Assembly: GCA_945869405.1 (NCBI GenBank)
Contig: CAMBPD010000004.1
Location: forward strand, 1-45,928
DNA: 45,928 bases
Reading direction: 5' to 3'
Source of the DNA: Chryseobacterium gleum
GTDB taxonomy: Bacteria; Bacteroidota; Bacteroidia; Flavobacteriales_D; Sanyastnellaceae
Below the pieces are notes generated by a model. It ran no database searches, was not told where the DNA came from, and worked only from the letters and a program-made list of their open reading frames with translations. Made by a program: the position numbers and the translations under genes. This document shows positions 8,529 through 41,160 of this stretch, one piece after another; the first letter of the stretch is position 1, and the number at the start of each line of letters is the position of its first letter.

Positions 8529-11500
8529 TCACTTGATAAACTTCTGAGTAAACACAGCATGGGTATCTGTGTTTAACACAAGGGTATAAACTCCAGCACT
8601 CAACTGTTGGGTAGTCCAAGCAAGACGTTGACCGCTCGCTGACACGTGCGATGAGGTCATGATCACTTTCCCAAGCGCATCGTATATACTTGCGTTTATT
8701 AACCCGTAGTCTCCCCCTGCAAACAACACCTCTATTTCGTCAACCTTTTGCATAAAGCTAATTTTGCTCGCGGCTATCATTTCTGTTTCCGATAGACTAA
8801 GTGCTTGTATTACCCCAGCTGCGGTAGCGTCACATACGCCATCACATGTAACGGTGTAATTCAATACTTCATTCGCTTGCACGAGCACCTCAACGGTGTT
8901 TCCTGAAAGCTGCAGTCCATTTGAGAAGTTCCATACGCACACACCAGGCTGAGTGTGCAGGGCACTGAGTTGCACCATCTGCTGTTCATCCGAATATGCG
9001 GAGCCAATTTGATCAACGACAAGGCTATTTGCTTGTGAATCGCGCAAATCAATTTCCAATATCTCTTGGCTACACGGCGTGTAAATGTGCAATGCATATA
9101 GACCTGCGGGCAAATGCTCAACCAATGCAGATGATCCTTCCACGTTTGCAGTGCGCACAATCTCATGTTGTTCGTTGCGCACTTCATAACTAAACCAACT
9201 CGCATTCTCAACATCAAATGTGAACATACCAGTACTACCGAGGTTACATTCAACGGGCTCTGAGCCTGTGAGAACCGAGCGAATTTCTTGGGGTTGTTCT
9301 ACAACGATAACTCGCGAAGACACTCCACATACATCTTGCTCTACCTGCAGCAAATATTCACCGGCAGCCAAGTGATCGAATGTGACAGAGCCTTGGGCCA
9401 TAAACTCATAGCCATTTGTTGCGCTCAGCGAAATGCTCCAGTCTTGCGAGGGCACATTTACATCGATTGATGCATCGGCCAATCCGAAGCAAGAACTACC
9501 TGTAACAATAGTTTGAGCAGACGGTGTTGCGCGAATAATAAGTCGCACGCCTTGAAAAGGTTCAGTAGCATGAAGTATAAGCTGTGTTCCTTGGGTAAGG
9601 GAGATAACCTCTCCTGTAAGTACATCTTCCGCTACAAGACATGCACCTAATGGGAGATTTTGAAGGTCGACAACAGTCAGCACATAGTCACCCGCCTCAG
9701 GCATATCAACCACAACGGGAATCTCAAGTTCAGCAGAGTATGGTCTTGCATCCTGCGCGAGCGAAGCCCCGTCGGTTGCATGCAAAGACATCTCCACGGC
9801 TTCCGCGATAGGGCTTTGCAAATCTGCTACATCGAAGAGGTCATAACTAGCCGAAGCACTTTCATCAAACACAATAATGCTCTCGTCGGACTGAGCACCT
9901 TTAGAAAGGCGAAGGGCTACAAACGCGTTACTCGCATCTTCACTGCGCTCGAATGCTGCGCCAGTGTTGGTCTTGTGTGTCTCTTGGAATACAAGGTTCT
10001 GCGCTGTTGTATTCACCTTCACCAAGAAGCCTTGGCTATGGGCAATATACCGAGAGGCCGTTCCTGTATTGGTTGTGGCATTTCGAAACTTATAGGAATT
10101 CGATTGAAAGTCGAACACATAGTACACCTTCGGTCCGGTGAGCGACGTTGATACAAGATTCCAGTCAACCTCTGACGGGTAAGGATTACCAACAAGGTTC
10201 CACCCATAATCGAAAATTCCTCCTGGGGATGTCACAGTATAACTCAAAGGAACCGTAACCTGTCCGCTCTGAATGAGCCCCGTGTTATCTAAGTTTTGAA
10301 CCGCACCAGCCAACCAAACATAATACCCTCTGTTGCTCAATATTGCGTTCGTCACGTTGGTGACACCGACATACCCGGTATTCATTGATCCGGCAGTTGG
10401 TTCATTATAAATCTGCACGTTGTTAAACCCATAGCTTGGGAAGTCGGAGCCTGGGAAGCCCGTCGTAACAATATCATCGTTCCAAGAGGCGACGGTCTGG
10501 CTTTGTATAGGACAGGCCAAGTTAAACCAATAGCCCTGTGAGCTTGGGATGGAGGGAATGTAGCGCTGAAGTTCCACGTTTCCTGAAATAGCAGCACCCG
10601 ACTTGATTTCGCCAATTGAGGCTGAGCCTGCAGAGTTCGAAATCAATCGCAAACCGCCTGTCGATGTTTGGAGTGTTCCTTCAAGCATAGAAACTACGCC
10701 TGAAACAGAAACCAACGAAGGGCTCAGTGTAACGTTGAATCCATCATTGTCTATTGTCAGATTATTAAAAGTGGTTAGCGAGGCGGCTCCAGCGAAACCA
10801 ATCGTTTGCGCAGCCTGACCCTTGAATACCGCAGTAGATGTCTCTGCGGTGAAAGTTCCCTCAGTAATCCAGTTACCGAACACTCGCATCTCTGCGCTGC
10901 TACCGAGCAGTGTTGCACCCGAATTAATTGAAAGGTCATTCATACTCCACGTGCCTGTTGCGGTAATGGTGTGTCCAGATTGAATTACGAAACGATCGTA
11001 ACGTCCGGCAACTACAGCCTGAGCGGTGCCCACTGCGGTAGGAGCCCATACCACTCCATTCGAATTGCCGGTGGCCTGACTATACCATAAACGCTTGCAT
11101 CCTGATTGCGTCATTGAAACAGCGTCTATTCGGAATACATCGGATGCCGCAGCTAAATACTTGAAGCGCACTCCAAAAAATTTCGCAATTGGGAACGTTA
11201 TCGCGCCTCCAGAAGCATCCGTGCCGCTTCCTAGCGACGACAGGTTATTGAAGCCTCCATTGTTGTCGACGCTCAAGGTCCATGTTCCTTCTTCATTCAA
11301 GGAAACACGAATACCCACACGCACTCCACCGTTCACGTTGTCTATCCAATCAGTGGTTGAGTTTATAATTGGTGTTGTACCGTACACTCCATCCGTCACG
11401 CGGTACAAGCGAATATAATCCGCTGTTCCGGCAGAAGGAAGCGAGCTTTGATCGATTACGACGGCATAGCCATCGACCCCAGTGCTGTAGAAATTCGAAT

Positions 11501-13442
11501 CATTTGCCGCAAGGAAAACCTGGAAATTATTGTTGGCGCTGGCATCGTTTGCAAAGGCTAATTCGAATTGCCACGTCGTTTCAACTCCAATTAAATTGGC
11601 ATCATCGATTGGGTAGGCCAGCGAGGATTGACCGGCTATGGCTTGCGTGCTATGGCGCGCTGAATGCGTCCCATCAATGGGAGAACCTGTGTTGGCGCTC
11701 CAAGCCGTGCCATTGGTTTTCCAACCTGAAAGATTACCCGCATCGAAGTTTTGGTCTACAAGAGTTTCATAGCCCGTATCGTCATCCACAAGTGACAACT
11801 CAAGCGAATCGGCATCGCCTATGAACGCATTTGTTCCGCCACTCACGCTTTGAAGGGAGAAAACGTACTGCGCTACATCATCACAAATTGCATTGTTTGC
11901 GGGATCGATGTAAATGTATTTGGTTCCAGTAGCACCAGCGGCCCACGTGAGCGTTTGCGTGGTATAGCTTGGCGCGTATGCTGTTGTCGGGTTGGGTCCA
12001 GCCCCAGCGCGAGTAGCATCGCCGGAAAGAACAATTTGAATGCTAGTGGCAGCAATGCTCGAAGGGTTGAAGATGTCGACTCCTATGGCGAAATTGTTTG
12101 CAAGCGTAGCGTCTTCACTCACTTGGCCAGTTACAGCTCCGTTCAGTACCACATAGGTATCGGGAGGCAAAGCGCGGAATCGGAAACTATCAAACTCAGC
12201 GGCAGCGCGACCTTCCGCGGTATTGTCGTGAACGACCAAAAAACCAAAGTAGCCATTGGCTGCTGGAGCATAGGTATTGTCTGTTACATCGCCATGGTTT
12301 ACTGAAGACAGCGCGTCAGGGCAGCTAAGCGGAGTGGGTGTGGATTGGGTTGTTGCACCGTTTGTGGGTAAGGTAGACGTGTTAATCGTCCATACGCCGA
12401 GCTGCGATCTCATGACTTTGAAGGTCACCCCATAGTCTGTCAATGCTGTTGGAATACCAGTGCTGGAAGTGAAGATGGTAGTAGCCACGCCATCATCGAT
12501 GCGCTGCAAGCGGATGAACGAAGTTCCCGTTTGGCCAAGTAAAATGCGGTAACCATCTAGAGCGCCTGATTCAAGATTGGAGTTGTTGGCATAGAGGTAT
12601 ACAGCCTGTTGGTTATTCGCATCTAAATCGGAAGGCGCTCCTCCCACACCATCACGACCAATCCAAAAGTACCATTCCTGCTGAGAGTCCCAAGTGGTTA
12701 TTTGCGTGCTGATGTATTGTGATCCGGAGCCCGTCGATACGCTCAGTTTTGGTGTTGAAGTACGGGTCGCTTCACTGCCTGTAAGACCCGATGCCGTTGA
12801 ATTGGAGGCAAGGGTAAAATTAGCCGCATCGCCACTCCATGCTGGGGTAGTGAAATTCGCATCGCCGAAATAATCATTCACATCGTATTCAAAATAGGCC
12901 CTGAAATTTGCCCCTCCGTTGCTAGAGTACTTGGTGTTTGTGCAACCACCAGAATCATCGCCCGTAGCTTCGAAGTACACCTCTACCACATAACTACCAG
13001 ATGCAGTAATGCCCGTGAGCAGGTTCAAGGTTGAAGAGGGCGCAACACGCCACTTTTGGTCTCCGGTATTTGTTACATCTGGGCCACAAGCACCGCCAGA
13101 ACAGTCGGTTCCTCCAAAATTACAACAGAACGATAGCGCAAGTGAACTGAAAGCTGGAGGAGTGTCGCATGTGCGGTAAACCCTGTAGCGCATGGTAGCT
13201 GTGCAGACATTGGAAGCCGCGTTTTTGAAGGTAAGTACCTCAGCAAAATTGATTTCTAGAGAACCACCCGAGGTGTAGCGACCAAAATAATTGTGCTGAA
13301 AATTTGGCGACAGACCGTCCAACTGGCAGTCGTAATAACCACCGTTTACGCTTAACCCGGACTTGTATATATCCCAAGCGGCGCTTGCATTTAATGTTGG
13401 TAGAGCAAGGCAGGCAACGAGGAACAACTTAATCGTTTTCAT
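8529..13442 (-). CDS. Very large secreted protein with Calx-beta-like and lectin/jelly-roll-like regions and a T9SS-type C-terminus
   Basis: Signal peptide MKTIKLFLVACLALPTLNASAA; C-terminus '...SASGQRLAWTTQQLSAGVYTLVLNTDTHAVFTQKFIK' resembles T9SS type A sorting domains; Calx-beta-like 'CDDVAQYVFSLQSVSGG...LSLVDDD'. Confidence 0.85.
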   Translation of the reverse strand: MKTIKLFLVACLALPTLNASAAWDIYKSGLSVNGGYYDCQLDGLSPNFQHNYFGRYTSGGSLEINFAEVLTFKNAASNVCTATMRYRVYRTCDTPPAFSSLALSFCCNFGGTDCSGGACGPDVTNTGDQKWRVAPSSTLNLLTGITASGSYVVEVYFEATGDDSGGCTNTKYSSNGGANFRAYFEYDVNDYFGDANFTTPAWSGDAANFTLASNSTASGLTGSEATRTSTPKLSVSTGSGSQYISTQITTWDSQQEWYFWIGRDGVGGAPSDLDANNQQAVYLYANNSNLESGALDGYRILLGQTGTSFIRLQRIDDGVATTIFTSSTGIPTALTDYGVTFKVMRSQLGVWTINTSTLPTNGATTQSTPTPLSCPDALSSVNHGDVTDNTYAPAANGYFGFLVVHDNTAEGRAAAEFDSFRFRALPPDTYVVLNGAVTGQVSEDATLANNFAIGVDIFNPSSIAATSIQIVLSGDATRAGAGPNPTTAYAPSYTTQTLTWAAGATGTKYIYIDPANNAICDDVAQYVFSLQSVSGGTNAFIGDADSLELSLVDDDTGYETLVDQNFDAGNLSGWKTNGTAWSANTGSPIDGTHSARHSTQAIAGQSSLAYPIDDANLIGVETTWQFELAFANDASANNNFQVFLAANDSNFYSTGVDGYAVVIDQSSLPSAGTADYIRLYRVTDGVYGTTPIINSTTDWIDNVNGGVRVGIRVSLNEEGTWTLSVDNNGGFNNLSSLGSGTDASGGAITFPIAKFFGVRFKYLAAASDVFRIDAVSMTQSGCKRLWYSQATGNSNGVVWAPTAVGTAQAVVAGRYDRFVIQSGHTITATGTWSMNDLSINSGATLLGSSAEMRVFGNWITEGTFTAETSTAVFKGQAAQTIGFAGAASLTTFNNLTIDNDGFNVTLSPSLVSVSGVVSMLEGTLQTSTGGLRLISNSAGSASIGEIKSGAAISGNVELQRYIPSIPSSQGYWFNLACPIQSQTVASWNDDIVTTGFPGSDFPSYGFNNVQIYNEPTAGSMNTGYVGVTNVTNAILSNRGYYVWLAGAVQNLDNTGLIQSGQVTVPLSYTVTSPGGIFDYGWNLVGNPYPSEVDWNLVSTSLTGPKVYYVFDFQSNSYKFRNATTNTGTASRYIAHSQGFLVKVNTTAQNLVFQETHKTNTGAAFERSEDASNAFVALRLSKGAQSDESIIVFDESASASYDLFDVADLQSPIAEAVEMSLHATDGASLAQDARPYSAELEIPVVVDMPEAGDYVLTVVDLQNLPLGACLVAEDVLTGEVISLTQGTQLILHATEPFQGVRLIIRATPSAQTIVTGSSCFGLADASIDVNVPSQDWSISLSATNGYEFMAQGSVTFDHLAAGEYLLQVEQDVCGVSSRVIVVEQPQEIRSVLTGSEPVECNLGSTGMFTFDVENASWFSYEVRNEQHEIVRTANVEGSSALVEHLPAGLYALHIYTPCSQEILEIDLRDSQANSLVVDQIGSAYSDEQQMVQLSALHTQPGVCVWNFSNGLQLSGNTVEVLVQANEVLNYTVTCDGVCDATAAGVIQALSLSETEMIAASKISFMQKVDEIEVLFAGGDYGLINASIYDALGKVIMTSSHVSASGQRLAWTTQQLSAGVYTLVLNTDTHAVFTQKFIK

Positions 13443-13661
13443 ATGCATAAAATTAAATGAGGTCTAATTCTGTTCTTAGTTTCAAGGGTCGCTAAGGTAA
13501 TGCTAAAAACAAGTACTCACAAGCAAAATATGCTATCTACAAACCAAACGGTGTTATTTATACCACAACTGACAATGAGTTGATTATGAAAAAAGACAGT
13601 TCGCCATTGTCGTCTAATTAATCCGGAACATCAAGTTTGCGTAAAGTTAAAAACCAAGCGC

Positions 13662-13691
13662 TTGACTTTTCTACACTTGTCCCTACTTTTG
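13662..13691 (+). promoter_or_regulatory. Bacteroidota-type promoter upstream of the LTD gene
   Basis: TTG (13662-13664), 19-nt spacer, TACTTTTG (13684-13691), matching TTG-N~19-TAnnTTTG; ATG at 13718. Confidence 0.7.
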
Positions 13692-13717
13692 GCCGCTTGC
13701 TTAATTTAAATGACTCT

Positions 13718-14638
13718 ATGAAAAAACTTTTACTCTTGGCAACTGTGGCCATATCCACTGGAGGACTAACCGCTCAAAACAACTGCTTTGATGTGTTCAT
13801 TTCAGAATACGTTGAAGGGTCGAACAACAATAAAGCAATTGAGCTCTACAACCCTACACCGAACCCAATCGTTTTGGATGGTTTGTATTCCATGGGACGC
13901 GATCGCGATGGAGCGGGAAACCCTATGCTACTTCCGATTACAGGGGTTATTTTGCCTCACCAAGTGCGCGTATTTGCGCTCGACAAGCGTGACCTAGCCG
14001 GCACCGGCACGGAAGTTCCTCTCGACGTCGAGCTGATTGCATTGGCCGATACGTTCCTCAACCCCGTTTATGTTCAATCGAACTCACCAATGTATTTCAA
14101 CGGTGACGATGCGTTTGTTCTGGTTAAAAACGGCAATCAGATTCTGGATATCGTTGGTAAAATCGGCGAAGATCCTGGAGGCGGATGGTGGGTACCGGGC
14201 GATCCGGCAACTCGTTGGTGGACGCAAGACAACACGATGATCCGCAAACCAAGTGTATTGAGCGGTGTTTCAACCAACCCTGATGTATTCGATCCTTCAT
14301 TGCAATGGGATAGTTTGCCATCCAACACTTACACTGAATTAGGTGAACACTTGTGCGATTGCGTCAACCTCAATCCGAATGCAATCAATGAGAACACCCT
14401 TTCGACCTTCAGCATTTTCCCTAACCCAGTATTGCAAGGTTCGTTTGCGCTGAAGAGCTCTTTGTCAATGGAGTCGGTATCGATTCTCTCTGCCGATGGC
14501 CGCTTGATCGACCGCCGCAGCCTGCAAGGCGTTACCTACACCAACATCACATTTCCACAAGCGGAGGCGGGTGTTTACTTCATTGAAATCGTTTACACCG
14601 ATGGTAAAAAAGCGATTCAGAAATTGTTAGCACGCTAA
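13718..14638 (+). CDS. Secreted lamin-tail-domain (LTD) protein with T9SS-type C-terminal sorting domain
   Basis: MKKLLLLATVAISTGGLTAQNNCFDVFISEYVEGSNNNKAIELYNPT... (LTD signature), 'FSIFPNPVLQGSFAL...AGVYFIEIVYTDGKKAIQKLLAR' (T9SS type A). Start 13718 preferred over the TTG at 13637, which lies upstream of the promoter. Confidence 0.9.
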   Translation: MKKLLLLATVAISTGGLTAQNNCFDVFISEYVEGSNNNKAIELYNPTPNPIVLDGLYSMGRDRDGAGNPMLLPITGVILPHQVRVFALDKRDLAGTGTEVPLDVELIALADTFLNPVYVQSNSPMYFNGDDAFVLVKNGNQILDIVGKIGEDPGGGWWVPGDPATRWWTQDNTMIRKPSVLSGVSTNPDVFDPSLQWDSLPSNTYTELGEHLCDCVNLNPNAINENTLSTFSIFPNPVLQGSFALKSSLSMESVSILSADGRLIDRRSLQGVTYTNITFPQAEAGVYFIEIVYTDGKKAIQKLLAR

Positions 14639-14661
14639 TTAAGAAATTGATCTATAACGAG

Positions 14662-14689
14662 AGAAAGGGGTTTTAAGCCCCTTTCTTTT
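14662..14689 (+). terminator. Intrinsic terminator between the LTD gene and the TonB-dependent receptor gene
   Basis: AGAAAGGGG-ttttaag-CCCCTTTCT followed by TTT. Confidence 0.8.
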
Positions 14690-14709
14690 GCTTCAAAAAT
14701 CAGGCTCAC

Positions 14710-17436
14710 ATGAAACAATTCCTTCTTTCCTTTCTAAGTGCACTACTCTCGATTTCAGCACTTTGCCAAGCCACAGTCAGTGGGCGCGTGGCCGACAGTG
14801 AAACGAACGAAGCCTTGCCTGGAGCAGTTGTAACCTTTGAAGATGGCGCGGGCACAACCACCGACTTGGACGGGAGTTACACCTTGAAACTGGAAAACGG
14901 ATCTTACGTGCTAAGTGCCGCTTTTGTCGGCATGGAACGCATGTCTATTCCGGTGGAAATAAACGGTGAAAATCAGACGGTCGATTTTCTGTTGAACTCC
15001 ACCTCTACCATGAGCGAAGTGAATGTGACAGCAGATATGGCTGTTGGACGCCGCACGCCCGTAGCATTTAGCGATATCTCCTCGCTCAAAATCAAAGAAG
15101 AGCTTGCCTCGCGCGACCTTCCGATGATTCTCAATACAACGCCCGGCGTATATGCTACTCAGTCGGGTGGGGGCGATGGCGATGCCCGTGTGAACATTCG
15201 TGGCTTCAGCCAACGCAACGTTTCCGTGATGGTCGATGGTATACCCATGAACGACATGGAAAACGGATGGGTGTATTGGAGCAATTGGTTCGGCCTGGAC
15301 AATGTGACGCAAAAAACCCAGGTACAGCGTGGTTTAGGAGCATCGAAGCTCGCTGTTCCGTCTATTGGTGGTAACATCAACATCCTGACGCAAGGCATGG
15401 AAGAGAAGTTCAATGTGAAGCTCTCGACCGAGCTGGGCAACAACAACAACATGCGCCAAGGTTTCGGAATTAACAGCGGCCGTTTACGCGGCGACTGGGC
15501 TGTTACAGCAGCCTTTTCATACAAGACCAACGATGGATGGGTAGAGCAACTCAGCTCAAAACAGATTTTTTACTTCCTCAAAGTTCAAAAGCAATTCGAG
15601 AAGCATGCGTTTTCATTTTCTGCAATGGGCAGCCCGCAAGAACACGAGCAGCGTCTAGGAAGAAACCGCATGTCGTTTTACGACGTTAATTACGCAGTTG
15701 CCAATGGTGCTGATACGGCCGGTTCTTTTGCACAACAAGTTCCCCTTGACCGTGGGTTACGCTACAACTCTGAATGGGGCTATCTCTCGCGCAACCGATA
15801 CGACGCAGAAGCTCCGGTTGAAACTCAATCAGGTCGTAACAACTACTACCACAAACCAATCGTAAACTTCAAGCACTTCTGGACACCCAGCGAAAAATTT
15901 GCGCTTTCCAATGTGCTCTACGCTTCATTTGGTAATGGAGGTGGCATGAGGCCCAACACCTCCATTCAGGACTCCACCGGACACATCGACTTTCAATACA
16001 TGTATGACAAGAACACCAAGACGTTTACCAACTTCCTGGGTGTTGTTATCAGTCCTGCAAATCTGAATTACATCAACAATCCGAATGCATACGCTGCATC
16101 TTACTTCATGCAGTCGAGCGTCAACAACCACCAATGGTATGGCTTGCTTTCCACTTTCAAATCGGAAATCAACAAGCAGCTAGAGCTCTCAGGTGGATTG
16201 GATGTTCGCTATTATACCGTAGACCGCTATCAAATAGTGTATGATTTGCTCGGAGCCGACTACGCGCTGATCGACAAGAAGAGCAGCTCTGAGAATCGAT
16301 ACATCCAGAATCAAAACATTGAGTCGGAATACAACAACACGCTTCTCGGCAAAGTGGTTCGCTACGAAGGAGATCGCATCAACTACAACATCACCAGCAA
16401 TGTGCTTCAGTCGGGCCTATTTATGCTGGCCGAGTATTCAGGTGAGAGCTATACTGCGTTCTTGAATGCAACCATGTCGAACAGCCGTTACAACCGCATC
16501 GATCACTTCGCGATGGGCGATTCAATGGGCAATGAAATCGAGAGTGGCTGGAAAAACTTCAACGGAGGAACCGTGAAGGCAGGCTTCAACTACCGTTTCA
16601 ACAAGCGCGCATCCGTATTCATGAATACCGGATTCCTTTCACGCGCCCCGATGTTGGCCAACACTTACTATAGCACTAGTCTGGAAACATTCGACAACCT
16701 GCGCAACGAAGAAATTTCTTCAGCTGAAGTGGGAGCCAACTACAACACGAAAGAATTCAAAGTAACCTTGAATGCCTACTACACTATATGGAATAACCGT
16801 CCTGTAACCGGCACACGCACCAACGGAACAGAAAACTATTATTACAACGTTCCAGGAATGCGCGCGCTCCACCAAGGCGTTGAGCTCGATGCAGAGTGGG
16901 TTGCCGACAAGCAACTTTCATTGGAAGGCGTGCTCTCTGTTGGTGACTGGCGTTGGAAATCGGCTGCTACTGCCTACGTGACCGATGAAAACGGAAACAC
17001 GGTTGGCGACCCTATTGAGTTTGACGCACGCAACATCAAAGTAGGTGATGCGGCACAATTTCAAACCAGCTTTGCGGTTCGCTACAGCCCTATCAAAGGA
17101 CTCTACTTCAAGCCACGCTTCACGCGTTTCGACAACAACTTCGCAGAGTTCAACCCAGATGGGTTGAGTGGTGAAAACGCCGGAAAACAGTCGTGGAAAA
17201 TGCCGGCATACAACATGCTCGATTTAAGTATGGGCTATGGCCGCGATATTTCCAAAGGCTATAACCTCGTGTTTCGCATCAACATCCTGAATGTGTTGGA
17301 TGAAGTATTCGTAACCGATGCGCTCAACAACGAGTTTAAACCTCAAAATAACCCAGGATTCAATGCATCATCCGCCGGAGTTTACTACGGCATGGGCTTG
17401 CGCTGGACAGTAGGTCTTACACTCACAATTCGATAA
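14710..17436 (+). CDS. TonB-dependent outer-membrane receptor with N-terminal carboxypeptidase-regulatory-like domain
   Basis: 'ATVSGRVADSETNEALPGAVVTFEDGAGTTTDLDGSYTL', plug 'LPMILNTTPGVYATQSGGGDGDARVNIRGFSQRNVSVMVDGIPMND', beta-barrel C-terminus 'YGMGLRWTVGLTLTIR'. No SusD-like gene adjacent. Confidence 0.95.
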   Translation: MKQFLLSFLSALLSISALCQATVSGRVADSETNEALPGAVVTFEDGAGTTTDLDGSYTLKLENGSYVLSAAFVGMERMSIPVEINGENQTVDFLLNSTSTMSEVNVTADMAVGRRTPVAFSDISSLKIKEELASRDLPMILNTTPGVYATQSGGGDGDARVNIRGFSQRNVSVMVDGIPMNDMENGWVYWSNWFGLDNVTQKTQVQRGLGASKLAVPSIGGNINILTQGMEEKFNVKLSTELGNNNNMRQGFGINSGRLRGDWAVTAAFSYKTNDGWVEQLSSKQIFYFLKVQKQFEKHAFSFSAMGSPQEHEQRLGRNRMSFYDVNYAVANGADTAGSFAQQVPLDRGLRYNSEWGYLSRNRYDAEAPVETQSGRNNYYHKPIVNFKHFWTPSEKFALSNVLYASFGNGGGMRPNTSIQDSTGHIDFQYMYDKNTKTFTNFLGVVISPANLNYINNPNAYAASYFMQSSVNNHQWYGLLSTFKSEINKQLELSGGLDVRYYTVDRYQIVYDLLGADYALIDKKSSSENRYIQNQNIESEYNNTLLGKVVRYEGDRINYNITSNVLQSGLFMLAEYSGESYTAFLNATMSNSRYNRIDHFAMGDSMGNEIESGWKNFNGGTVKAGFNYRFNKRASVFMNTGFLSRAPMLANTYYSTSLETFDNLRNEEISSAEVGANYNTKEFKVTLNAYYTIWNNRPVTGTRTNGTENYYYNVPGMRALHQGVELDAEWVADKQLSLEGVLSVGDWRWKSAATAYVTDENGNTVGDPIEFDARNIKVGDAAQFQTSFAVRYSPIKGLYFKPRFTRFDNNFAEFNPDGLSGENAGKQSWKMPAYNMLDLSMGYGRDISKGYNLVFRINILNVLDEVFVTDALNNEFKPQNNPGFNASSAGVYYGMGLRWTVGLTLTIR

Positions 17437-17458
17437 GCAATTAACCAAGCACACAATA

Positions 17459-19861
17459 ATGAAAAGTACACTTACCTTTATCTGCACTGCCCTGTTGGCA
17501 ATCTATTCAACCGTTGCCGGTGCGCAAGCAATTTTACCTTCCGCCTGGAATTTCGACGTGAACGCTCCAACCGGTTGGTCTGAATCTCTAGGTGCCAGCA
17601 ACACTCGCTATGCCAACGGTCAAAACGGACAGGCCTGTCGATTGGATGCAACCGGAGATTTGGTTCTTCTCGAGTTTGCCGAAGAACCCGGTGCGCTCAA
17701 CTACTATCTAAAAGGACAAAACAGCGGAGGTACATTTCAAGGCACCTTCACCATTCAGGAAAGTGTTGACGGAGTGAACTTCACTACGCTTCGCTCGCTT
17801 ATGGGCGGTGAACTTCCGGCTACTGCCTTTACAATGTTCACCGATAACCCTGCGGCAAGCACCCGTTACATCCGTTGGTTTTTCACCGAAAAGATATCTG
17901 GTCACAACGTGGCACTCGATGAGATTTCTCTGATTGCACCAACAGCGGGTACTGCGCAAGAAATCAATGTTACAGACGGCACCAATAACATCCCAAGCGG
18001 TTTCACCGTGTTCTTAGGCGATAATTTGGGACAACCTTTATTCATCGAAAACTTGGGCTCTGTCGCTTCGTTGGACATTACAAACATCGAAATATCCGGA
18101 ACGAATGCATCCGAATTCTCGGTTGCATTTGAGCCGTTTTCTGTTGCACCAAATGGCACAGGCATGGGCCTCGTATCTATCGATTTCACTCCTACTTTCA
18201 ACGGCTCACACTTTTGCACTGTAACCATCAGCAGCAACGACGTGAGCGAACCAACCTATGTGGTGAATTTGTATGCCATTTCGGGTGGGTTTGCAACTGA
18301 GCCTACTGCACAAGCCACATCGATCACATTCGACAACGTTCGTTCATGGGATTTCCAAACTACACTTGCCGCTGCTGCGCAACCCGCGGAAGGCTACATT
18401 GTGCTCCGCAAAAAAGGGTCACCTGTTAATGAATCACCTGTTGACGGCACAACGTATGTGCGAGGACAATGGATCGGCAATGCGCAAGTTGTATATGTTG
18501 GAGAGGCAGCTAGCTTTGATGCACGTGCCATCGAAGCAGGTTTTACTTACCACCTAGCAGCATTTGCATTCAATGGTCAGCTAGGATTCGAAAACTACCT
18601 GACTTCAAGCCCTACAACATCTACCGTCGACGCACCGGCATCAAATTTTGGTTCATTGTATAGCGCAATCAATGTGAGTAGTCCTTCATTGGTTACCGAT
18701 TTAACTGCGCTCATGAACCCGTCGAACTATTTCCAAGTGTATTACAGCAACTACATCAGCACGCTCGTAAACAATTTCTACGTGCGCGATACCGTGGTAA
18801 CAGGGGTTACACAAAGCATGGTTGAATGCCAGTATAGCGGTGTGCCTTATCTGTTTGAAGCGGGCTTCCAGTGGACCAGCCTCAGCCGCGAACACCACTA
18901 TCCGCAAAGCTGGATGCCAACCTACTTCGACGCTAGTTTCGATCAGTCTTTTGAAGTAAGCGACTTGCACAACCTGTCGCCTGTTTTTCAAAATGAAGTG
19001 AACGCTGTAAGAAGCAACAATCCTTACGGAGAAGTTGTAACACCTACCAGCACCTTTGAAGATTGCATGCTTGGAGCAAACAACCTCGGCCAAACAGTGT
19101 ATGAAATGCGGGAGAGTTATAAAGGAAATTCAGCTCGCGCTATCATGTACCAAGCAACCAAGAACAACACATCTACTGCAGACTTCAGTCTTCCAGAACA
19201 GATTTCTATCGTCATTCAATATGGACAGAGTGAACAACTGTTGAAGCAGTGGCATTTCCAAGACCTGCCAGACAGTTGGGAGATCACGCGCAACGAATAC
19301 ATTCAATACGAGCAGCACAACCGCAATGCGTTTATCGACCAGGTTAGCTACCCATGCTACATCCGCTTTGCAGATCTCACTCCTTTTAGCCCTGAATTTA
19401 TATTCAACAATACCACACTCACTTGCATTGACCCAGCACAGAGCTATCAGTGGTATTTGGATGGTAACCCAATTGAAGAAGCTACATCAGCCACTTACGA
19501 TTGGACAACCGCGGGTAACTACAGCGTAGAAATTCAGCAGTTCGATCAGTGCCCATCCTTCACTTCTAGCGCCTCATTGGTAGGCACTGCAGTAGAAGAA
19601 ACCATGGGCGTTCAATTCGATCTTTCTGTATTCCCAAATCCTTCCGAAGGCCGTGTGGTTGTGAAAACACATGCGTCACGTCCAACAACTGCACAAATGA
19701 ACGTGCTCGACATGACCGGTAAAGTTGTATTCACTTCCAATGAAAACCTGAATGGAGGATTGAATCTGATTGCCATCGACGAAGAAATCAGCGCCGGTGT
19801 TTATACAGTAGAAATTCGCAGTGGTGAGTCGGCTCAGACAACACGTCTCGTTATTCGTTAA
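17459..19861 (+). CDS. Secreted endonuclease I (EndA/NucM-like) with choice-of-anchor/Ig-like region and T9SS-type C-terminus
   Basis: 'SLSREHHYPQSWMPTYFD', 'SDLHNLSPVFQNEVNAVRSNNPYGEVV', 'KGNSARAIMYQ', 'EITRNEYIQYEQHNRNAFIDQVSYPCYIRF' match endonuclease I motifs; 'LSVFPNPSEGRVVV...SAGVYTVEIRSGESAQTTRLVIR' C-terminus. Confidence 0.92.
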   Translation: MKSTLTFICTALLAIYSTVAGAQAILPSAWNFDVNAPTGWSESLGASNTRYANGQNGQACRLDATGDLVLLEFAEEPGALNYYLKGQNSGGTFQGTFTIQESVDGVNFTTLRSLMGGELPATAFTMFTDNPAASTRYIRWFFTEKISGHNVALDEISLIAPTAGTAQEINVTDGTNNIPSGFTVFLGDNLGQPLFIENLGSVASLDITNIEISGTNASEFSVAFEPFSVAPNGTGMGLVSIDFTPTFNGSHFCTVTISSNDVSEPTYVVNLYAISGGFATEPTAQATSITFDNVRSWDFQTTLAAAAQPAEGYIVLRKKGSPVNESPVDGTTYVRGQWIGNAQVVYVGEAASFDARAIEAGFTYHLAAFAFNGQLGFENYLTSSPTTSTVDAPASNFGSLYSAINVSSPSLVTDLTALMNPSNYFQVYYSNYISTLVNNFYVRDTVVTGVTQSMVECQYSGVPYLFEAGFQWTSLSREHHYPQSWMPTYFDASFDQSFEVSDLHNLSPVFQNEVNAVRSNNPYGEVVTPTSTFEDCMLGANNLGQTVYEMRESYKGNSARAIMYQATKNNTSTADFSLPEQISIVIQYGQSEQLLKQWHFQDLPDSWEITRNEYIQYEQHNRNAFIDQVSYPCYIRFADLTPFSPEFIFNNTTLTCIDPAQSYQWYLDGNPIEEATSATYDWTTAGNYSVEIQQFDQCPSFTSSASLVGTAVEETMGVQFDLSVFPNPSEGRVVVKTHASRPTTAQMNVLDMTGKVVFTSNENLNGGLNLIAIDEEISAGVYTVEIRSGESAQTTRLVIR

Positions 19862-19878
19862 ACGAACTTTCACACTAT

Positions 19879-19917
19879 TAAAAAAAGCCGATTCCAAATG
19901 GAGGCGGCTTTTTTTAT
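19879..19917 (+). terminator. Intrinsic terminator after the endonuclease gene
   Basis: AAAAAAAGCCG...GGCGGCTTTTTTT hairpin with T tract. Confidence 0.85.
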
Positions 19918-26010: not shown

Positions 26011-27804
26011 TTAATGAGCGTGTTCTCCAGGCTTCATTGGGACCACCTGTGGCACAAAGTCTTCTTCATGTTCAGGATTGCTGTAATCATAGGCCCAACG
26101 ATGAACTTCCGGAATAGCCCCAGGCCAATTGCCGTGCATGTGTTTAACTGGAGTCGTCCACTCGAGAGTATTCGACGCCCAAGGATTTTGAACAGCTACT
26201 TGACCATAACGAATGCTATGAAAGAAGTTGAACAAAAACAATAGTTGTGCTGCTCCACCAACGATTGCAAAAATGGAGATGATTGGGTTCAAATCCATTA
26301 CCCAATCCAAAAATGGAACCTCAGAAAAGTCGTAATAACGACGAGGAGCACCGGCCATACCTACAAAGTGCATTGGGAAAAACACGCCAAACCCGCATAC
26401 CAAGGTGAACCAAAAGTGCACATAGCCGAGTTTGCTATTCATCATTTTTCCGAACATCTTAGGGAACCAGTGGTAAATACCTGCTAGCATTCCAAAAATG
26501 GCCGAAAGACCCATTACAATGTGGAAGTGAGCAACTACGAAGTACGTATCGTGAACGTTAATATCCAACGCTGAATCCGCAAGCACAATACCCGTCAAAC
26601 CGCCAGTAACAAAGGTCGAAACTAGTCCGATAGAGAACAACATCGCTGGAGTGAAGCGTATGTTTCCTTGATACAATGTTGTAATGTAATTGAACGCTTT
26701 AACGGCAGAAGGAATCGCGATAAGCAGTGTTGTGAACACGAACACCGATCCAAGGAATGGGTTCATGCCTGTAATGTACATGTGGTGACCCCAAACGATA
26801 AACGATAGAAATCCGATCGCCAAGATGGAACCAACCATTGCTTTGTAACCGAAAATTGGCTTACGCGAATTGGTTGATATAACCTCTGAAGAAATACCCA
26901 ACGCTGGAAGGAGAACGATATACACCTCCGGGTGACCAAGGAACCAGAACAAGTGTTGGAACAACAGCGGCGAACCACCGGTTACATCGAGCGCTTCCCC
27001 TTGAATGAAGATATCTGAAAGATAAAACGCTGTTCCGAAACTACGGTCCATGATTAGCAACACCACGGCTGACACCAGCACAGGGAACGACAACACTCCA
27101 AGAATTGCGGTTACGAAAAGCGCCCAGATCGTCAATGGCAGACGGGTCATTTTCATACCCTTTGTGCGAAGGTTGATGATGGTAACGATGTAGTTCAATC
27201 CACCAAGCAACGAAGACGCTACAAAGAACACCATTGAAATCAGCCAAAGCGTCATACCTGTTCCCGAACCCGGCATCGCCTGAGGCAATGCAGAAAGAGG
27301 AGGGTAAATTGTCCAACCGCCGCTTGCTGCTCCTCCCTCTACAAAGAGAGAGGAAATCATAATAAAACTCGACAACAAGAAGAACCAATAGGACAACATA
27401 TTCAAGAACCCGCTTGCCATGTCTCGTGCACCTATTTGTAATGGGATGAGAAGGTTTGCAAAAGTTCCAGACAAACCACCCGTCAACACGAAGAACACCA
27501 TGATGGTTCCGTGAATCGTAACCATTGCTAGGTATGCGTTTTTGTCTAGCAGTCCGTCTGGTGCCCACTTATCTCCAAGGAAGAAATTCAAAATCTGAAA
27601 TTTCTCACCAGGCCATCCAAGTTGCAATCGGAAAAAGATTGAAAGCAAGACCGCAATCACACCCATTACAATCGCTGTAATGAGGAACTGCTTAGAAATC
27701 ATCTTATGGTCTTGGGAAAATATATACTTAGAGACCCAAGATTCTTGGTGGTGGTGTGCATGGCTTTGGCTATGATCCTGAGCTGCGTGTTCTGCGTTTC
27801 CCAT
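26011..27804 (-). CDS. ctaD: Cytochrome c oxidase subunit I
   Basis: 'FWFLGHPEVYIVLLPALGISSEVIS', 'FIVWGHHMY', 'DTYFVVAHFHIVMG'; His-rich N-terminus. Confidence 0.97.
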   Translation of the reverse strand: MGNAEHAAQDHSQSHAHHHQESWVSKYIFSQDHKMISKQFLITAIVMGVIAVLLSIFFRLQLGWPGEKFQILNFFLGDKWAPDGLLDKNAYLAMVTIHGTIMVFFVLTGGLSGTFANLLIPLQIGARDMASGFLNMLSYWFFLLSSFIMISSLFVEGGAASGGWTIYPPLSALPQAMPGSGTGMTLWLISMVFFVASSLLGGLNYIVTIINLRTKGMKMTRLPLTIWALFVTAILGVLSFPVLVSAVVLLIMDRSFGTAFYLSDIFIQGEALDVTGGSPLLFQHLFWFLGHPEVYIVLLPALGISSEVISTNSRKPIFGYKAMVGSILAIGFLSFIVWGHHMYITGMNPFLGSVFVFTTLLIAIPSAVKAFNYITTLYQGNIRFTPAMLFSIGLVSTFVTGGLTGIVLADSALDINVHDTYFVVAHFHIVMGLSAIFGMLAGIYHWFPKMFGKMMNSKLGYVHFWFTLVCGFGVFFPMHFVGMAGAPRRYYDFSEVPFLDWVMDLNPIISIFAIVGGAAQLLFLFNFFHSIRYGQVAVQNPWASNTLEWTTPVKHMHGNWPGAIPEVHRWAYDYSNPEHEEDFVPQVVPMKPGEHAH

Positions 27805-27832
27805 CGTTCTTTTCTTTAACTATTTCTTTTGT

Positions 27833-29095
27833 TTAACGAGTCGTTTTTAGGCTAGCCTGTGCTGCAGGCATCATTGCGTTCTTCGTAGTATCAGCTGGCG
27901 CCTCTGTTCCTTCGGTTGGCGCGGCCTCCTTTGACGGTTCACCGGCAAACGTCTTTTGTTTTTCCAGCCATGCAAGGTATTCTTGTTCTGATTCAACAAC
28001 AATTTTCATCTGCATATTAAAGTGTGCATTTCCACAAACTTTGTTGCAAAGCAGAATATAGTCAAACTTATCATCATTCAATTTCCCACGCATCTCTTTG
28101 GTTGTGATCGATGGGGTCATCTTAAAGCGTGTCGGTACGCCGGGAACGCTATTCATCTGAGCGCGGAAGTGTGGCATGTAGGCCGAGTGAATAACGTCTT
28201 GAGAGCGGAACACAAATTCAATTTCCTTTCCTACAGGAATATGCATCTCTCCTTTAACGATTTGATCATCGAAACCGGTTTCCCAATTGCTCTTGCCGTT
28301 AGACTGTTTAAACTCACCCAAATCTAAGATTCGTTGCTTATGGCGTTCAAGACGATACACCTTGTCTTGCAGAGTTTCCACGTAACTTTCTGGCATTACA
28401 GGTAGCTTTTCGTTCGCTTCCAACTGATCTTTTAAGGCTTCTATGTCTTTATCCAGCCCATCAATTTTCGCTGCAATGTGGCTCTTCGACACCAGACCCA
28501 TTTCATTAGCGGTGCTTATCAAGTTGTAGTTTGCTGCTCCAAACTCTGCGTCTTGCCCCGGGTAGCGAGCAATCCATGCGAACTGCTTCGAATACAACTC
28601 TATCTGCAACGCATCCTCGGATGCTGGACCCGTGATCTTGTTCCAGGTTATCAATCCAAAAACGATAATGAATGCCATGAATACCCCGGGGACCAACGTC
28701 CATACCATCTCTAAACGGTTGTCATGGGCAAAGAAACGCGCCTTACGATCCTTCTTGTATTGGTATTTCCATGCCACAACAAACAACATCGCGTTCATGA
28801 TGAAGAACATAATGGTAATCATCCAAATGTTGACGTTCATCAACCAATCGACATCCTTTCCATGCTCCGATGCGGGCTCCGGAAGGTAATCTCGGTAACG
28901 CACGTAGAGGTATAATGTGCCAATGAAAAACACCAGCATCCAAACAATCATCAAATTCGCATTTAGCTTATTGTCTGCCGGAGTAGTATCCTCCTCTCTC
29001 GTCTTACGCAATGCGCGTGAAAACTCATAAACTTTGGTCAATTGCACAATGGCTATGATCGCTAAAACAATTACCAGTATGATCAGTAGTTTCAT
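27833..29095 (-). CDS. coxB: Cytochrome c oxidase subunit II with coiled-coil insertion
   Basis: Two TM helices, 'FRSQDVIHSAYMPHFRAQMNSVPG', CuA motif 'CNKVCGNAHFNMQMKIVV'. Confidence 0.96.
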   Translation of the reverse strand: MKLLIILVIVLAIIAIVQLTKVYEFSRALRKTREEDTTPADNKLNANLMIVWMLVFFIGTLYLYVRYRDYLPEPASEHGKDVDWLMNVNIWMITIMFFIMNAMLFVVAWKYQYKKDRKARFFAHDNRLEMVWTLVPGVFMAFIIVFGLITWNKITGPASEDALQIELYSKQFAWIARYPGQDAEFGAANYNLISTANEMGLVSKSHIAAKIDGLDKDIEALKDQLEANEKLPVMPESYVETLQDKVYRLERHKQRILDLGEFKQSNGKSNWETGFDDQIVKGEMHIPVGKEIEFVFRSQDVIHSAYMPHFRAQMNSVPGVPTRFKMTPSITTKEMRGKLNDDKFDYILLCNKVCGNAHFNMQMKIVVESEQEYLAWLEKQKTFAGEPSKEAAPTEGTEAPADTTKNAMMPAAQASLKTTR

Positions 29096-29137
29096 TTCTC
29101 TTCGTGTTTACTATCGTTCACTTAAAACAACAATTTC

Positions 29138-30382
29138 TTATATCTGATGGTTCTCACTTTCATTCAAATACGGATGATTCACGGGAACCAACGGGGCCTT
29201 GCTCAATGCCTTCATTACCACGCTCACAAACAATCCTAAGAACCCAAGGAACATTCCTATTTCAAACCACCAAGCGAAGGTGATGTGCTGCACATGTTCA
29301 CCCAGTCCCCATTCCAAATGACCGTGTACTGTTCCAGGCACTACTGCCATGTACAAATCGAGGAAGTGTGTGATAAAGATGATTATACCCACGCGTGTCA
29401 AATACTTCGGATTGCGTTTCGCATCGCGTGATGTAAGGGTGTAAAATGGTATGGCAAAATTGCAAAAGAAGATAGCCCACATCCCAATCATGTAATGGTC
29501 GTAACGCTCTTTGAAGTAGGTTACTTCTTCAGGAATATTCGAATACCAAATCAACATGTACTGGCAGAACCACAGGTAGCTCCAAAGCATACTTACCGCA
29601 AAAACCCATTTACCCATATCATGGATGTGGGAATCATTTACTCCTGGCATGTAGCCCTTTTTCTTCAACCAGATAAGCAGTAATGTGGCGAAAATCATCG
29701 TGGTTACCCACATGCCCGAAAAGATGTACCATCCGTACATTGTAGAAAACCAGTGCACATCAATACTCATCAACCAATCCCAAGACATTGTGCTAGAGAA
29801 CACAGCAAAAAAGACGAGAAATAGCGCGCTGCGCTTATACTGTTTTATGTGAAGATCCATACTTGGCGCCACGTCTTCTTGCAACGACCATTGGCGAAAT
29901 AAGCGGGCAAACACGACGAACACAACAGCATAGATTACAAATCTTAGCCAAAAAAACCAACTCGATAGGAACGGCATTTTGTTCGCAATCAACTTATCAA
30001 AAGAGGGACTGTTCGGATCGATGACCTCCGGATCCATCCAGTGGTAAAGGTGGTTTATATGAAGCTGCGCTGCGAGCAATACAACAAACACGACAGCGAG
30101 GCCAATAGGAAGATAGGACCACATCGCCTCAAAAATCCGTTTCAATTGGGCAGTCCATGCCACCTCAGCGGCATATTGCATAGCATAAAAGAACATTGCG
30201 CCAAGAGAAATGGCAAAAAAGAAGAACCCACAGATGAGCAAGTTTGCCCACCAGTATTGGTGATGATCCGTTTTATCGAAAAACCAACCGCCTACTGCGG
30301 CTAGAGCGCCGATAACCATAAAGATGGTCGACCAGGTTTTGGTTTTCGCTGGAATTTCGAAGTGTGTCATTGCGTTTTCCAT
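29138..30382 (-). CDS. actF: Alternative complex III subunit ActF (quinol:cytochrome c oxidoreductase membrane subunit)
   Basis: Ten-TM-like protein, 'STMSWDWLMSIDVHWFSTMYGWYIFSGMWVTT'; position in an actABCDEF order. Confidence 0.93.
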   Translation of the reverse strand: MENAMTHFEIPAKTKTWSTIFMVIGALAAVGGWFFDKTDHHQYWWANLLICGFFFFAISLGAMFFYAMQYAAEVAWTAQLKRIFEAMWSYLPIGLAVVFVVLLAAQLHINHLYHWMDPEVIDPNSPSFDKLIANKMPFLSSWFFWLRFVIYAVVFVVFARLFRQWSLQEDVAPSMDLHIKQYKRSALFLVFFAVFSSTMSWDWLMSIDVHWFSTMYGWYIFSGMWVTTMIFATLLLIWLKKKGYMPGVNDSHIHDMGKWVFAVSMLWSYLWFCQYMLIWYSNIPEEVTYFKERYDHYMIGMWAIFFCNFAIPFYTLTSRDAKRNPKYLTRVGIIIFITHFLDLYMAVVPGTVHGHLEWGLGEHVQHITFAWWFEIGMFLGFLGLFVSVVMKALSKAPLVPVNHPYLNESENHQI

Positions 30383-30410
30383 AGCTTATCTGTCGCGCAG
30401 TAGTTTCGTG

Positions 30411-31115
30411 TTATTTTTTTGTTGCTGAGCTGTCAGCTGCCGGAGCTTCAGCGGCTTGTGTTACAAGCATGTCATTCGCATCAAACTCTGGTTCTGTAAT
30501 GCCGTTCCGAAGGAGTTTTATATATTCAATGATCTGCCAACGCTCCAACTGATTTACCTGAGAAGCATGCTGACCCATCAACCCTTTACCGTAGGTTATA
30601 GAGTGATACATTTTACCCTCGGGAAGGTCTTTCAACTTTCCAGCGTAGTCTGGAATCCCCAGAATGTGGCCATTCTTAGAAATTGCACCGTCACCATGCC
30701 CCGCCTCTCCATGACAATGGGTACACATGTAGGTGTATATTTCTTTGCCTCTGAGAACATTCTTCTTGGTTGCCGTTAAGGGGCTATGAATTTCTGTGGC
30801 AGCGCGCTCATAATCTTCTGGAGTATTATTGAGTGGGTAGGGCATTACAAACTGCATCATTTCTGCCTTCATATAAGGAATCGTATTTGCAGCAGGAACG
30901 CGTGACTTAAGAGATACCAACCCTGCGGCATCTTTCATGTCCTGTGTCCAGTCCATCGTTTTGTTGGTGCCATAGTCAACGTAGGCCTCCAAAGCAGGCG
31001 AGCGATACATGTCGGGCATGTATTCTACACCAGGTGAGTTGGGGTCTTGACGGCACGATGACAGTGCGAATACAGCCACACAGGCTATCCCAAAGAGGGT
31101 TGTTGTACGCTTCAT
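30411..31115 (-). CDS. actE: Alternative complex III subunit ActE, monoheme cytochrome c lipoprotein
   Basis: Lipobox 'VFALSSC', 'DMYRSPALEAY', heme motif 'CTHCHGEAGHGDG'. Confidence 0.93.
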   Translation of the reverse strand: MKRTTTLFGIACVAVFALSSCRQDPNSPGVEYMPDMYRSPALEAYVDYGTNKTMDWTQDMKDAAGLVSLKSRVPAANTIPYMKAEMMQFVMPYPLNNTPEDYERAATEIHSPLTATKKNVLRGKEIYTYMCTHCHGEAGHGDGAISKNGHILGIPDYAGKLKDLPEGKMYHSITYGKGLMGQHASQVNQLERWQIIEYIKLLRNGITEPEFDANDMLVTQAAEAPAADSSATKK

Positions 31116-31116
31116 C

Positions 31117-31647
31117 TCAATAATCCTTTATGCTAAGTTCAAATACGTCGGTCGCGCGAATCTTGGCTTCAAGATCTGGAGCCGACATGTGATTATCCTC
31201 TGTAATAATTTCCATTACAAACTTGTCGTCCGTAGTGCGTGGATCGGGGTTGTCGGCGGGCATACCCGGCAAGGTTCCATTGCGCAGCAGGTAGGTCAAT
31301 ACCATGCCGTGAGCGCCGCAAAAGACAGAAAACTCAAACATTACTGGAACAAATGCTGGTGCATTCTCTATCCATGTAAAGTTTGGCTTGCCGCCGATGT
31401 TCCAATCCCAATCGCTCACCATGAAGTACCATGTTCCCAAAATGGACAAGGCCGTTCCGGTGCATGCATACATGAATGAACAGATGGCAAGACGCGTGCG
31501 CGTCACACCAATAATAGGATCCAATCCGTGAACAGGGAAGGGAGAAAACACTTCCTTCACACGGATACCCTGAGCAACGAGAGCGCGAGCAGCGTCCAGC
31601 AACTTCTGGTCGTCGTCGTACATCACGTGAAAAACTTTGTTGGCCAT
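31117..31647 (-). CDS. actD: Alternative complex III subunit ActD (DUF3341)
   Basis: 176 aa, 'VKEVFSPFPVHGLDPIIGV', two TM helices, 'GGKPNFTWIENAPAFVPVMFEF'. Confidence 0.93.
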   Translation of the reverse strand: MANKVFHVMYDDDQKLLDAARALVAQGIRVKEVFSPFPVHGLDPIIGVTRTRLAICSFMYACTGTALSILGTWYFMVSDWDWNIGGKPNFTWIENAPAFVPVMFEFSVFCGAHGMVLTYLLRNGTLPGMPADNPDPRTTDDKFVMEIITEDNHMSAPDLEAKIRATDVFELSIKDY

Positions 31648-31666
31648 AGGACTATAGCGTTATTGC

Positions 31667-33043
31667 TTAGTGTTTGTTTTCGTTTTTATAACTCTCACCG
31701 GAGGTCTTCAAAATCGTCTTGAGCTCGTTGAGCGCCAATACTGGGAAGTATCTTGCAAACAACAAGAAAAGAGTGAAGAAGATTCCAATAGTTCCGATGA
31801 ACATACCGATGTCTATCGGGCTAGCCTTGAACTCACCCCATGCAGAGGGTAAGTAGTCGCGGTGGATGGAGGTTACGATAATTACAAATCGCTCGAACCA
31901 CATACCGATGTTCACAATGATTGACATGAAAAAGGTAAAGCCAAGGTTGGTGCGCAGCTTCTTAAACCAGAACAACTGCGGAGAAATCACGTTGCACGTC
32001 ATCATGCACCAATACGCCCAAGAAAGTGGGCCGGAGAAACGGTTGATGAAAGCATACGACTCGTATTGCACCCCACTGTAGTCAGACATGAATAGCTCGG
32101 TTAAGTAGGCAACACCCACGATAGAACCCGTAACGATGATTACGATGTTCATGTACTCAATGTGCTTGACGTGGATGTAGGCCTCTAGTTTCATGGTCTT
32201 GCGCATGATTAGCAGGAGTGTTTGCACCATTGCAAAACCTGAGAAGATCGCTCCCGACACGAAATATGGAGGAAAGATGGTTGTATGCCATCCCGGAACA
32301 ATTGAAGTAGCGAAGTCCATGGATACGATGGAGTGCACAGAGAATACAAGTGGAGTAGCTATACCAGCGAGCACCAGCGATATTTCCTCGAAGCGTGTCC
32401 AATGTTTTGCCCTGCCTGACCAACCAAAACTAAGAATTCCATAAAACTTTTTCATCCATGGCTTGCTCACACGGTCGCGTATGGTCGCGAAGTCAGGAAT
32501 CAACCCGATGTACCAAAACACGAGTGACACAGAGAAGTAAGTCGAAATGGCAAATACGTCCCACATCAACGCAGAGTTGAAGTTGGGCCAAAGTGAACCA
32601 AATTGGTTCGGTAGCGGAAGCGTCCAATAGGCCAACCAAACACGACCCATGTGGAAAACGGGGAACAGAGCCGCCATGATTACCGCAAAAATGGTCATTG
32701 CCTCAGCAGAGCGGTTAATTGCCATGCGCCAGCGCTGACGGAAGAGTAAAAGCACTGCCGAAATAAGGGTTCCAGCGTGACCAATACCTACCCACCATAC
32801 GAAATTCGTGATATCCCATGCCCAACCCACGGTTTTATTAAGACCCCATGAGCCAATACCTACTCCTACTAAATAACTGATGCAACCAATTCCGTAAAGG
32901 GCGACAATTAGCGCAATGGTAAAAGCAATTTTCCATTGCTTAGACGCCGATCCTTCGATTGGTCCTACGATATCATTTGTGATGTCGTGGTACGTCTTAT
33001 GCCCTAGGATAAGCGGCTTTCTTATGTTGGATTCTTTGAACAT
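31667..33043 (-). CDS. actC: Alternative complex III subunit ActC (NrfD/PsrC-like)
   Basis: 'KTVGWAWDITNFVWWVGIGHAGTLISAVLLLFRQRWR', 'FGSLWPNFNSALMWDVFAISTYFSVSLVFWY'. Confidence 0.95.
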   Translation of the reverse strand: MFKESNIRKPLILGHKTYHDITNDIVGPIEGSASKQWKIAFTIALIVALYGIGCISYLVGVGIGSWGLNKTVGWAWDITNFVWWVGIGHAGTLISAVLLLFRQRWRMAINRSAEAMTIFAVIMAALFPVFHMGRVWLAYWTLPLPNQFGSLWPNFNSALMWDVFAISTYFSVSLVFWYIGLIPDFATIRDRVSKPWMKKFYGILSFGWSGRAKHWTRFEEISLVLAGIATPLVFSVHSIVSMDFATSIVPGWHTTIFPPYFVSGAIFSGFAMVQTLLLIMRKTMKLEAYIHVKHIEYMNIVIIVTGSIVGVAYLTELFMSDYSGVQYESYAFINRFSGPLSWAYWCMMTCNVISPQLFWFKKLRTNLGFTFFMSIIVNIGMWFERFVIIVTSIHRDYLPSAWGEFKASPIDIGMFIGTIGIFFTLFLLFARYFPVLALNELKTILKTSGESYKNENKH

Positions 33044-33064
33044 CTCGATTGGTTTCTTAGAGGT

Positions 33065-36313: not shown

Positions 36314-36345
36314 GGAGGTTAATCCGTGTTATTCGGTTTTTACAA

Positions 36346-40950: not shown

Positions 40951-41160
40951 ATGAACGCTACTATTTCCATGAGTTATGTAATGATTGCGGTAATGTTGTT
41001 GCTCGCCGTCGCGTGTCTTTTCACGGAGTCTGCTGTGCAATGGCTTCCCGGCAACAGGCGTTATGTGATGGCTGGCGTTTTGGTTCTCTATACAGCCATA
41101 CGATGGTATCGCTTGCAGGTTTATAAAAAAAGAATCTCCGAGGAGCATCATGCATCATAA
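40951..41160 (+). CDS. Small membrane protein with two predicted TM segments
   Basis: 69 aa, 'SYVMIAVMLLLAVACLF...YVMAGVLVLYTAIRWYRLQVYKKR'; overlaps the start of the next gene by 11 nt. Confidence 0.6.
   Translation: MNATISMSYVMIAVMLLLAVACLFTESAVQWLPGNRRYVMAGVLVLYTAIRWYRLQVYKKRISEEHHAS

Follow-up and report, generated by a model that had tools for sequence, protein, structure and literature searches.

We conclude that three neighbouring genes in the window analysed here, a stretch of DNA of 45,928 nucleotides, probably constitute a locus for the acquisition of DNA at the outer membrane. This reading is based on sequence comparison, and its main foundation is that in related genomes the trio is exchanged in place with a second locus (system 2), whose relatives in Riemerella are natural transformation genes and whose job the trio would share. 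The three genes encode, in this order and in the same direction, an LTD protein, a TonB-dependent receptor and an endonuclease I, and are flanked and interrupted by the following elements.

13662 to 13691, + strand: promoter-like motif of the Bacteroidota type, TTG-N19-TAnnTTTG (exact match), enriched 5' of the LTD gene in relatives
13718 to 14638, + strand: secreted LTD protein of 306 aa (ATG at 13718), resembling the ExeM N-terminus and with a T9SS type A C-terminal domain
14665 to 14684, + strand: terminator-like or attenuator-like hairpin in the gap between the LTD and receptor genes (fold −23 kcal/mol)
14710 to 17436, + strand: TonB-dependent receptor of 908 aa, clade T1, with CarbopepD_reg, Plug and a predicted beta barrel
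17459 to 19861, + strand: secreted endonuclease I of 800 aa, with an N-terminal region, a choice-of-anchor D-like Ig domain, the nuclease domain and a T9SS tail
18881 to 19342, + strand: endonuclease I catalytic domain (REHHYP, DLHNL...N..RSNNP; PF04231, E 2.7e-21)
about 19880 to 19916, + strand: intrinsic terminator-like hairpin closing the trio, recognised from the sequence (fold −21.3 kcal/mol)

The original prediction had described three same-direction genes, a SusD-less receptor among them, lying between a promoter and a terminator, and this description was borne out, as no SusD was encountered among the surrounding open reading frames of the window by inspection and domain search. Counted across the window with up to one mismatch, the promoter motif occurs 15 times against 19 expected and is thus not above chance; 5' of the LTD gene, the strict motif is present in 5 of 89 relatives versus 0.8% of random windows, and a version with a spacer of 17–21 in 26 of 89 versus 1.9%. 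The hairpin at 14665–14684, which had been missed, was also found in all eight close relatives that were folded; it possibly effects attenuation within the operon and, with this conserved position after the first gene, the LTD gene may be expressed above the rest of the trio. Divergent from the trio, positions 8529–13448 encode a 1639-residue secreted protein with a T9SS tail, and several relatives harbour other large open reading frames at this location.

The LTD protein was identified as claimed, its LTD match (Pfam; E 5.1e-8, 33.7 bits) falling just under the cut-off of 34.3 and its T9SS tail (Por_Secre_tail) just above (27.8 versus 27 bits), while the corresponding protein of a relative (L110) reaches 58 bits for LTD. 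It also aligns to the N-terminal stretch of NF033680, the ExeM model (E 2.7e-17), covering positions 3–185 of 884 and attaining 62 bits against a cut-off of 1300. The trio in this respect resembles the ExeM and EndA nucleases of Shewanella, EndA sharing the endonuclease I family (PMC6085458); unlike ExeM, the LTD and the nuclease of the trio are separate T9SS-type proteins linked to a receptor gene, and the LTD protein has neither a YhcR nor an EEP domain. The proposal that the LTD protein binds DNA did not find support, since these proteins are acidic (median pI 4.7; about 4.2 for the domain in the window) and the LTD of ExeM is dispensable for extracellular DNA degradation (PMC6085458). This is the part of the proposed uptake locus that is left unsupported, whereas conservation, receptor clade and nucleic acid as substrate are backed by the results below; the LTD protein may instead perhaps act as a scaffold or lid.

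The nuclease scores 76.8 bits for Endonuclease_1 against a cut-off of 25 and 40.9 bits for the T9SS tail against 27, in agreement with the secretion signal that had been claimed. The catalytic REH and N..RSN residues of the predicted motifs are present, and all 52 family members compared keep R, E, H, N, R and N unchanged. The domain and its motif residues are shared with the Vibrio endonuclease I structures (PDB 1OUP, 2IVK), which differ in that the trio protein possesses a large N-terminal extension and a T9SS tail indicative of type IX secretion. Among relatives, the nuclease position is occupied either by endonuclease I, which in many cases carries DUF5689 at its N-terminus, or by an unrelated DUF5689-PLD protein in which both HxKx4D motifs are retained (32 of 32), meaning that the position alternates between unrelated folds with active sites intact in both. 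Apart from the trio, the genome from which the window derives contains an additional nuclease gene, of the DUF5689-PLD type and truncated at a contig end (L164:1-1262).

Concerning the receptor, Pfam matches were obtained for Plug (47.8 bits, cut-off 23.9) and CarbopepD_reg, and its length and homology predict a beta barrel. Among solved structures, the receptor profile comes nearest to a chain of the TonB-linked receptor 9gbc, with the alignment confined to the N-terminal third, so that structures give no indication of the ligand. A receptor with an N-terminal carboxypeptidase-like domain beside a secreted depolymerase is also what is seen in SusCD loci; unlike these, the trio lacks SusD and glycan-active enzymes, and its depolymerase is a nuclease. 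The receptor weakly resembles BtuB and haem receptor models, which could be taken to indicate an ordinary vitamin or siderophore receptor that happens to lie beside unrelated secreted proteins. We regard this explanation, already disfavoured, as scarcely credible, given that the receptor reaches 42.5 bits for the vitamin B12 model TIGR01779 against a cut-off of 599.7 and falls within a clade of its own (T1) with full support. T1 is separate in the tree from clade T2, the receptor of system 2, both belonging to one larger receptor group. A third related clade, T3 (L061, L063, L064, L317, L318), has no nuclease neighbours, several of its loci adjoining a gene that resembles aspartate-semialdehyde dehydrogenase. 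An apparent second T1 receptor in genomes G279 and G272 was rejected, as locus inspection and the tree assigned it to T3 beside unrelated genes; the receptor matches of G278 and G269 were assigned to T3 by score.

Conservation of the neighbourhood also argues against a chance association. The receptor was searched for in the family, order (246 genomes) and class (197 genomes), approximately 100 neighbourhoods were read, and 93 orthologous T1 loci were obtained from the order of the window and other families of its class. In 90 of these 93 the LTD gene is the immediate upstream neighbour of the receptor, and in 85 an identifiable secreted nuclease is encoded no more than three genes away; several of the exceptions are contig ends or shortened genes. 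The closest paralogous receptors (T3 and others like it) served as a control, and none of their 10 loci has an LTD or nuclease neighbour. Gene order and direction are kept throughout the class, with a median gap of 13 bases between the receptor and nuclease genes. The prediction of a trio conserved across Bacteroidota was thereby strongly upheld, and this linkage likewise speaks against the vitamin or siderophore explanation. Downstream of the trio in one family (f4) are two genes that together make up a split 5'-nucleotidase, one for a C-terminal domain lipoprotein and one for a metallophosphoesterase; another family (f64) has this pair upstream of the trio, in divergent orientation. We found no previous description of an LTD-receptor-nuclease locus in the open-access literature.

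A search for DUF5689 uncovered proteins of about 420 residues in genomes without the trio, and these belong to system 2. Its loci comprise a T2 receptor, one or two DUF5689 lipoproteins and a T9SS-tailed surface protein, together with divergent Exo_endo_phos nucleases and sometimes the same 5'-nucleotidase pair as is found in T1 relatives. A DUF5689 lipoprotein gene directly follows the receptor in 21 of 21 T2 loci and in 0 of 93 T1 loci. System 2 thus differs from the trio in its receptor and in possessing a DUF5689 lipoprotein in place of the LTD-T9SS protein, while T1 loci have endonuclease I or a PLD nuclease as opposed to Exo_endo_phos. The two nevertheless have in common a TonB-receptor-like outer-membrane protein and a surface protein in a small operon, an extracellular nuclease gene nearby (in most T2 loci) and the same chromosomal places in alternative genomes.

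T1 and T2 profile searches of the 246 genomes placed T2 in 43, T1 in about 184 and neither in about 19, with class limits set from scores and receptor fragments at contig ends counted as T1; the genome of the window is devoid of T2 by the T2 profile search. None of the 43 T2 genomes contains T1, compared to 184 of the 203 others (Fisher 2e-33, with related genomes counted individually). Both states occur within each of five genera (g40, g41, g46, g51 and g56). In g56, one genome carries T1 (L113) and another T2 (L310) between the same chromosomal flanks, of which one contributes five matching genes and the other six, at 87–97% protein identity, and the grouping of the L113 receptor with those of f4 in the tree suggests that this cassette was acquired from that family. 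In f4 itself both cassettes sit between citrate synthase-DPPIV genes and the 5'-nucleotidase pair, and the T1/T2 swaps L115/L311, L133/L312 and L131/L313 lie between these same neighbours. In families f5, f10 and f12 both cassettes recur in several genomes beside a common block of hydrolase, pyridoxine-synthesis, CBS-domain and NAD-kinase-like genes, named by sequence inspection. A hybrid locus (L309:8188-15718) combines T2, a DUF5689 lipoprotein and a T9SS protein with the DUF5689-PLD nuclease typical of T1 loci. In-place exchange combined with mutual exclusion is most simply read as a sign that both cassettes perform one and the same function.

The same results bear on the idea that the secreted proteins merely clear DNA from the cell surface, be it biofilm matrix, traps or the DNA of phages or competitors, while the receptor, specific for a metal or some other cofactor, shares the operon by chance. 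Divalent metals are cofactors of nucleases, which counts in favour of this idea, as does the effect of ExeM-type LTD nucleases on biofilms (PMC6085458). The T1 clade, however, remains associated with two unrelated nucleases, receptor and nuclease are exchanged as a unit, and the distance of the receptor from every named transporter model offers a cofactor receptor no encouragement; we judge this explanation to be very unlikely.

What system 2 may do is indicated by Riemerella. In a transposon screen of R. anatipestifer, RA0C_RS04915, an outer-membrane protein with CarboxypepD_reg, and the product of the downstream gene RA0C_RS04920, with DUF5689 and DUF5017, were essential for natural transformation, and the outer-membrane transformation genes of this species have no homologues in known uptake machinery (PMC8459023). 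Riemerella columbina is also naturally competent (PMC7965970). A search with a tonB primer sequence returned no Riemerella match; a 16S primer led to a Weeksellaceae sample of R. columbina and six other named genomes. Each of these seven genomes has a single DUF5689 gene, located directly after a T2 receptor. The R. columbina receptor matches CarboxypepD_reg, the next protein carries DUF5689 and a weak DUF5017 match, and the region upstream of the receptor encodes an Exo_endo_phos protein on the opposite strand. System 2 therefore appears to match the R. anatipestifer transformation pair domain for domain, the orthology being based on R. columbina, on domain make-up and on the uniqueness of DUF5689, and because the R. 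columbina pair fits the published description we infer that system 2 is a DNA uptake locus. That nucleic acid is the substrate of the trio, as originally proposed, is hence backed by three lines of evidence, namely the swapping of non-homologous nucleases, the linkage to 5'-nucleotidase genes and the exchange with a transformation-type locus.

Competence genes do not discriminate in this matter, as ComEC was found in 34 and DprA in all of 36 genomes, whether or not these carry one of the loci, and no co-loss of the loci with these genes was apparent; the genome of the window has both. As a separate observation, the ComEC frames of several genomes with neither locus (G125, G126, G128, G129 and G189) measure 566–599 aa, those of most other genomes being about 640–720 aa in length.

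Mechanistically, the LTD protein and the nuclease would be exported to the cell surface by the T9SS, where the nuclease would cleave extracellular DNA (or RNA), and the T1 receptor, powered by TonB, would move DNA or its fragments through the outer membrane; in many relatives the co-located 5'-nucleotidase pair may dephosphorylate the products. Both the surface location and the movement of DNA by the receptor are inferred. A narrower alternative is that the locus serves nutrition only, DNA being degraded outside the cell and the receptor importing oligonucleotides, nucleosides or phosphate in the manner of a polysaccharide utilization locus, with no intact DNA passing. Nucleosides and phosphate would normally pass through porins without a TonB receptor, which counts against this alternative, as does the presence of relatives of transformation-essential genes in the interchangeable T2 locus. 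On the other hand, a degrading nuclease accompanies the receptor at nearly every locus, many loci also have the 5'-nucleotidase pair, Bacteroidota degrade DNA in marine sediment (PMC8289736) and the endonuclease I EndA of Shewanella serves phosphorus acquisition (PMC6085458). On balance, we consider a purely nutritional role to be rather unlikely. Nutrition and transformation are compatible uses and not mutually exclusive, since transformation in both Riemerella species shifts with phosphate and peptone supply; tonB mutation also alters transformation in Riemerella (PMC8383284, PMC7965970), although some of the TonB and iron effects may be indirect (PMC8383284).

Returning to DNA acquisition as the preferred function, a bolder version would have the T1 and T2 receptors form an outer-membrane gate for double-stranded DNA, permitting pilus-independent import for both transformation and DNA feeding and passing from one species to another in whole cassettes that bring along surface nucleases of their own. 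This we put forward tentatively, as an idea that is somewhat more likely to fail than to hold.

Elsewhere in the window, a gene for a PBP_like_2 (PstS-type) lipoprotein-like product is followed by one for a TPR protein (41150–43818), with no recognised transporter genes adjoining in the window, and a run of genes at 26011–37734 resembles, on inspection, a respiratory cluster of cytochrome oxidase and alternative complex III, which is ordinary for the phylum.

The trio would thus represent a variant of a poorly understood kind of locus, a receptor-centred DNA acquisition cassette. It provides a functional context for DUF5689, a domain named in just one paper of the open-access literature searched. 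For the little-understood passage of DNA through the outer membrane of Bacteroidota, the trio names a small, testable set of proteins, in a phylum that matters for both phosphorus cycling and gene exchange.
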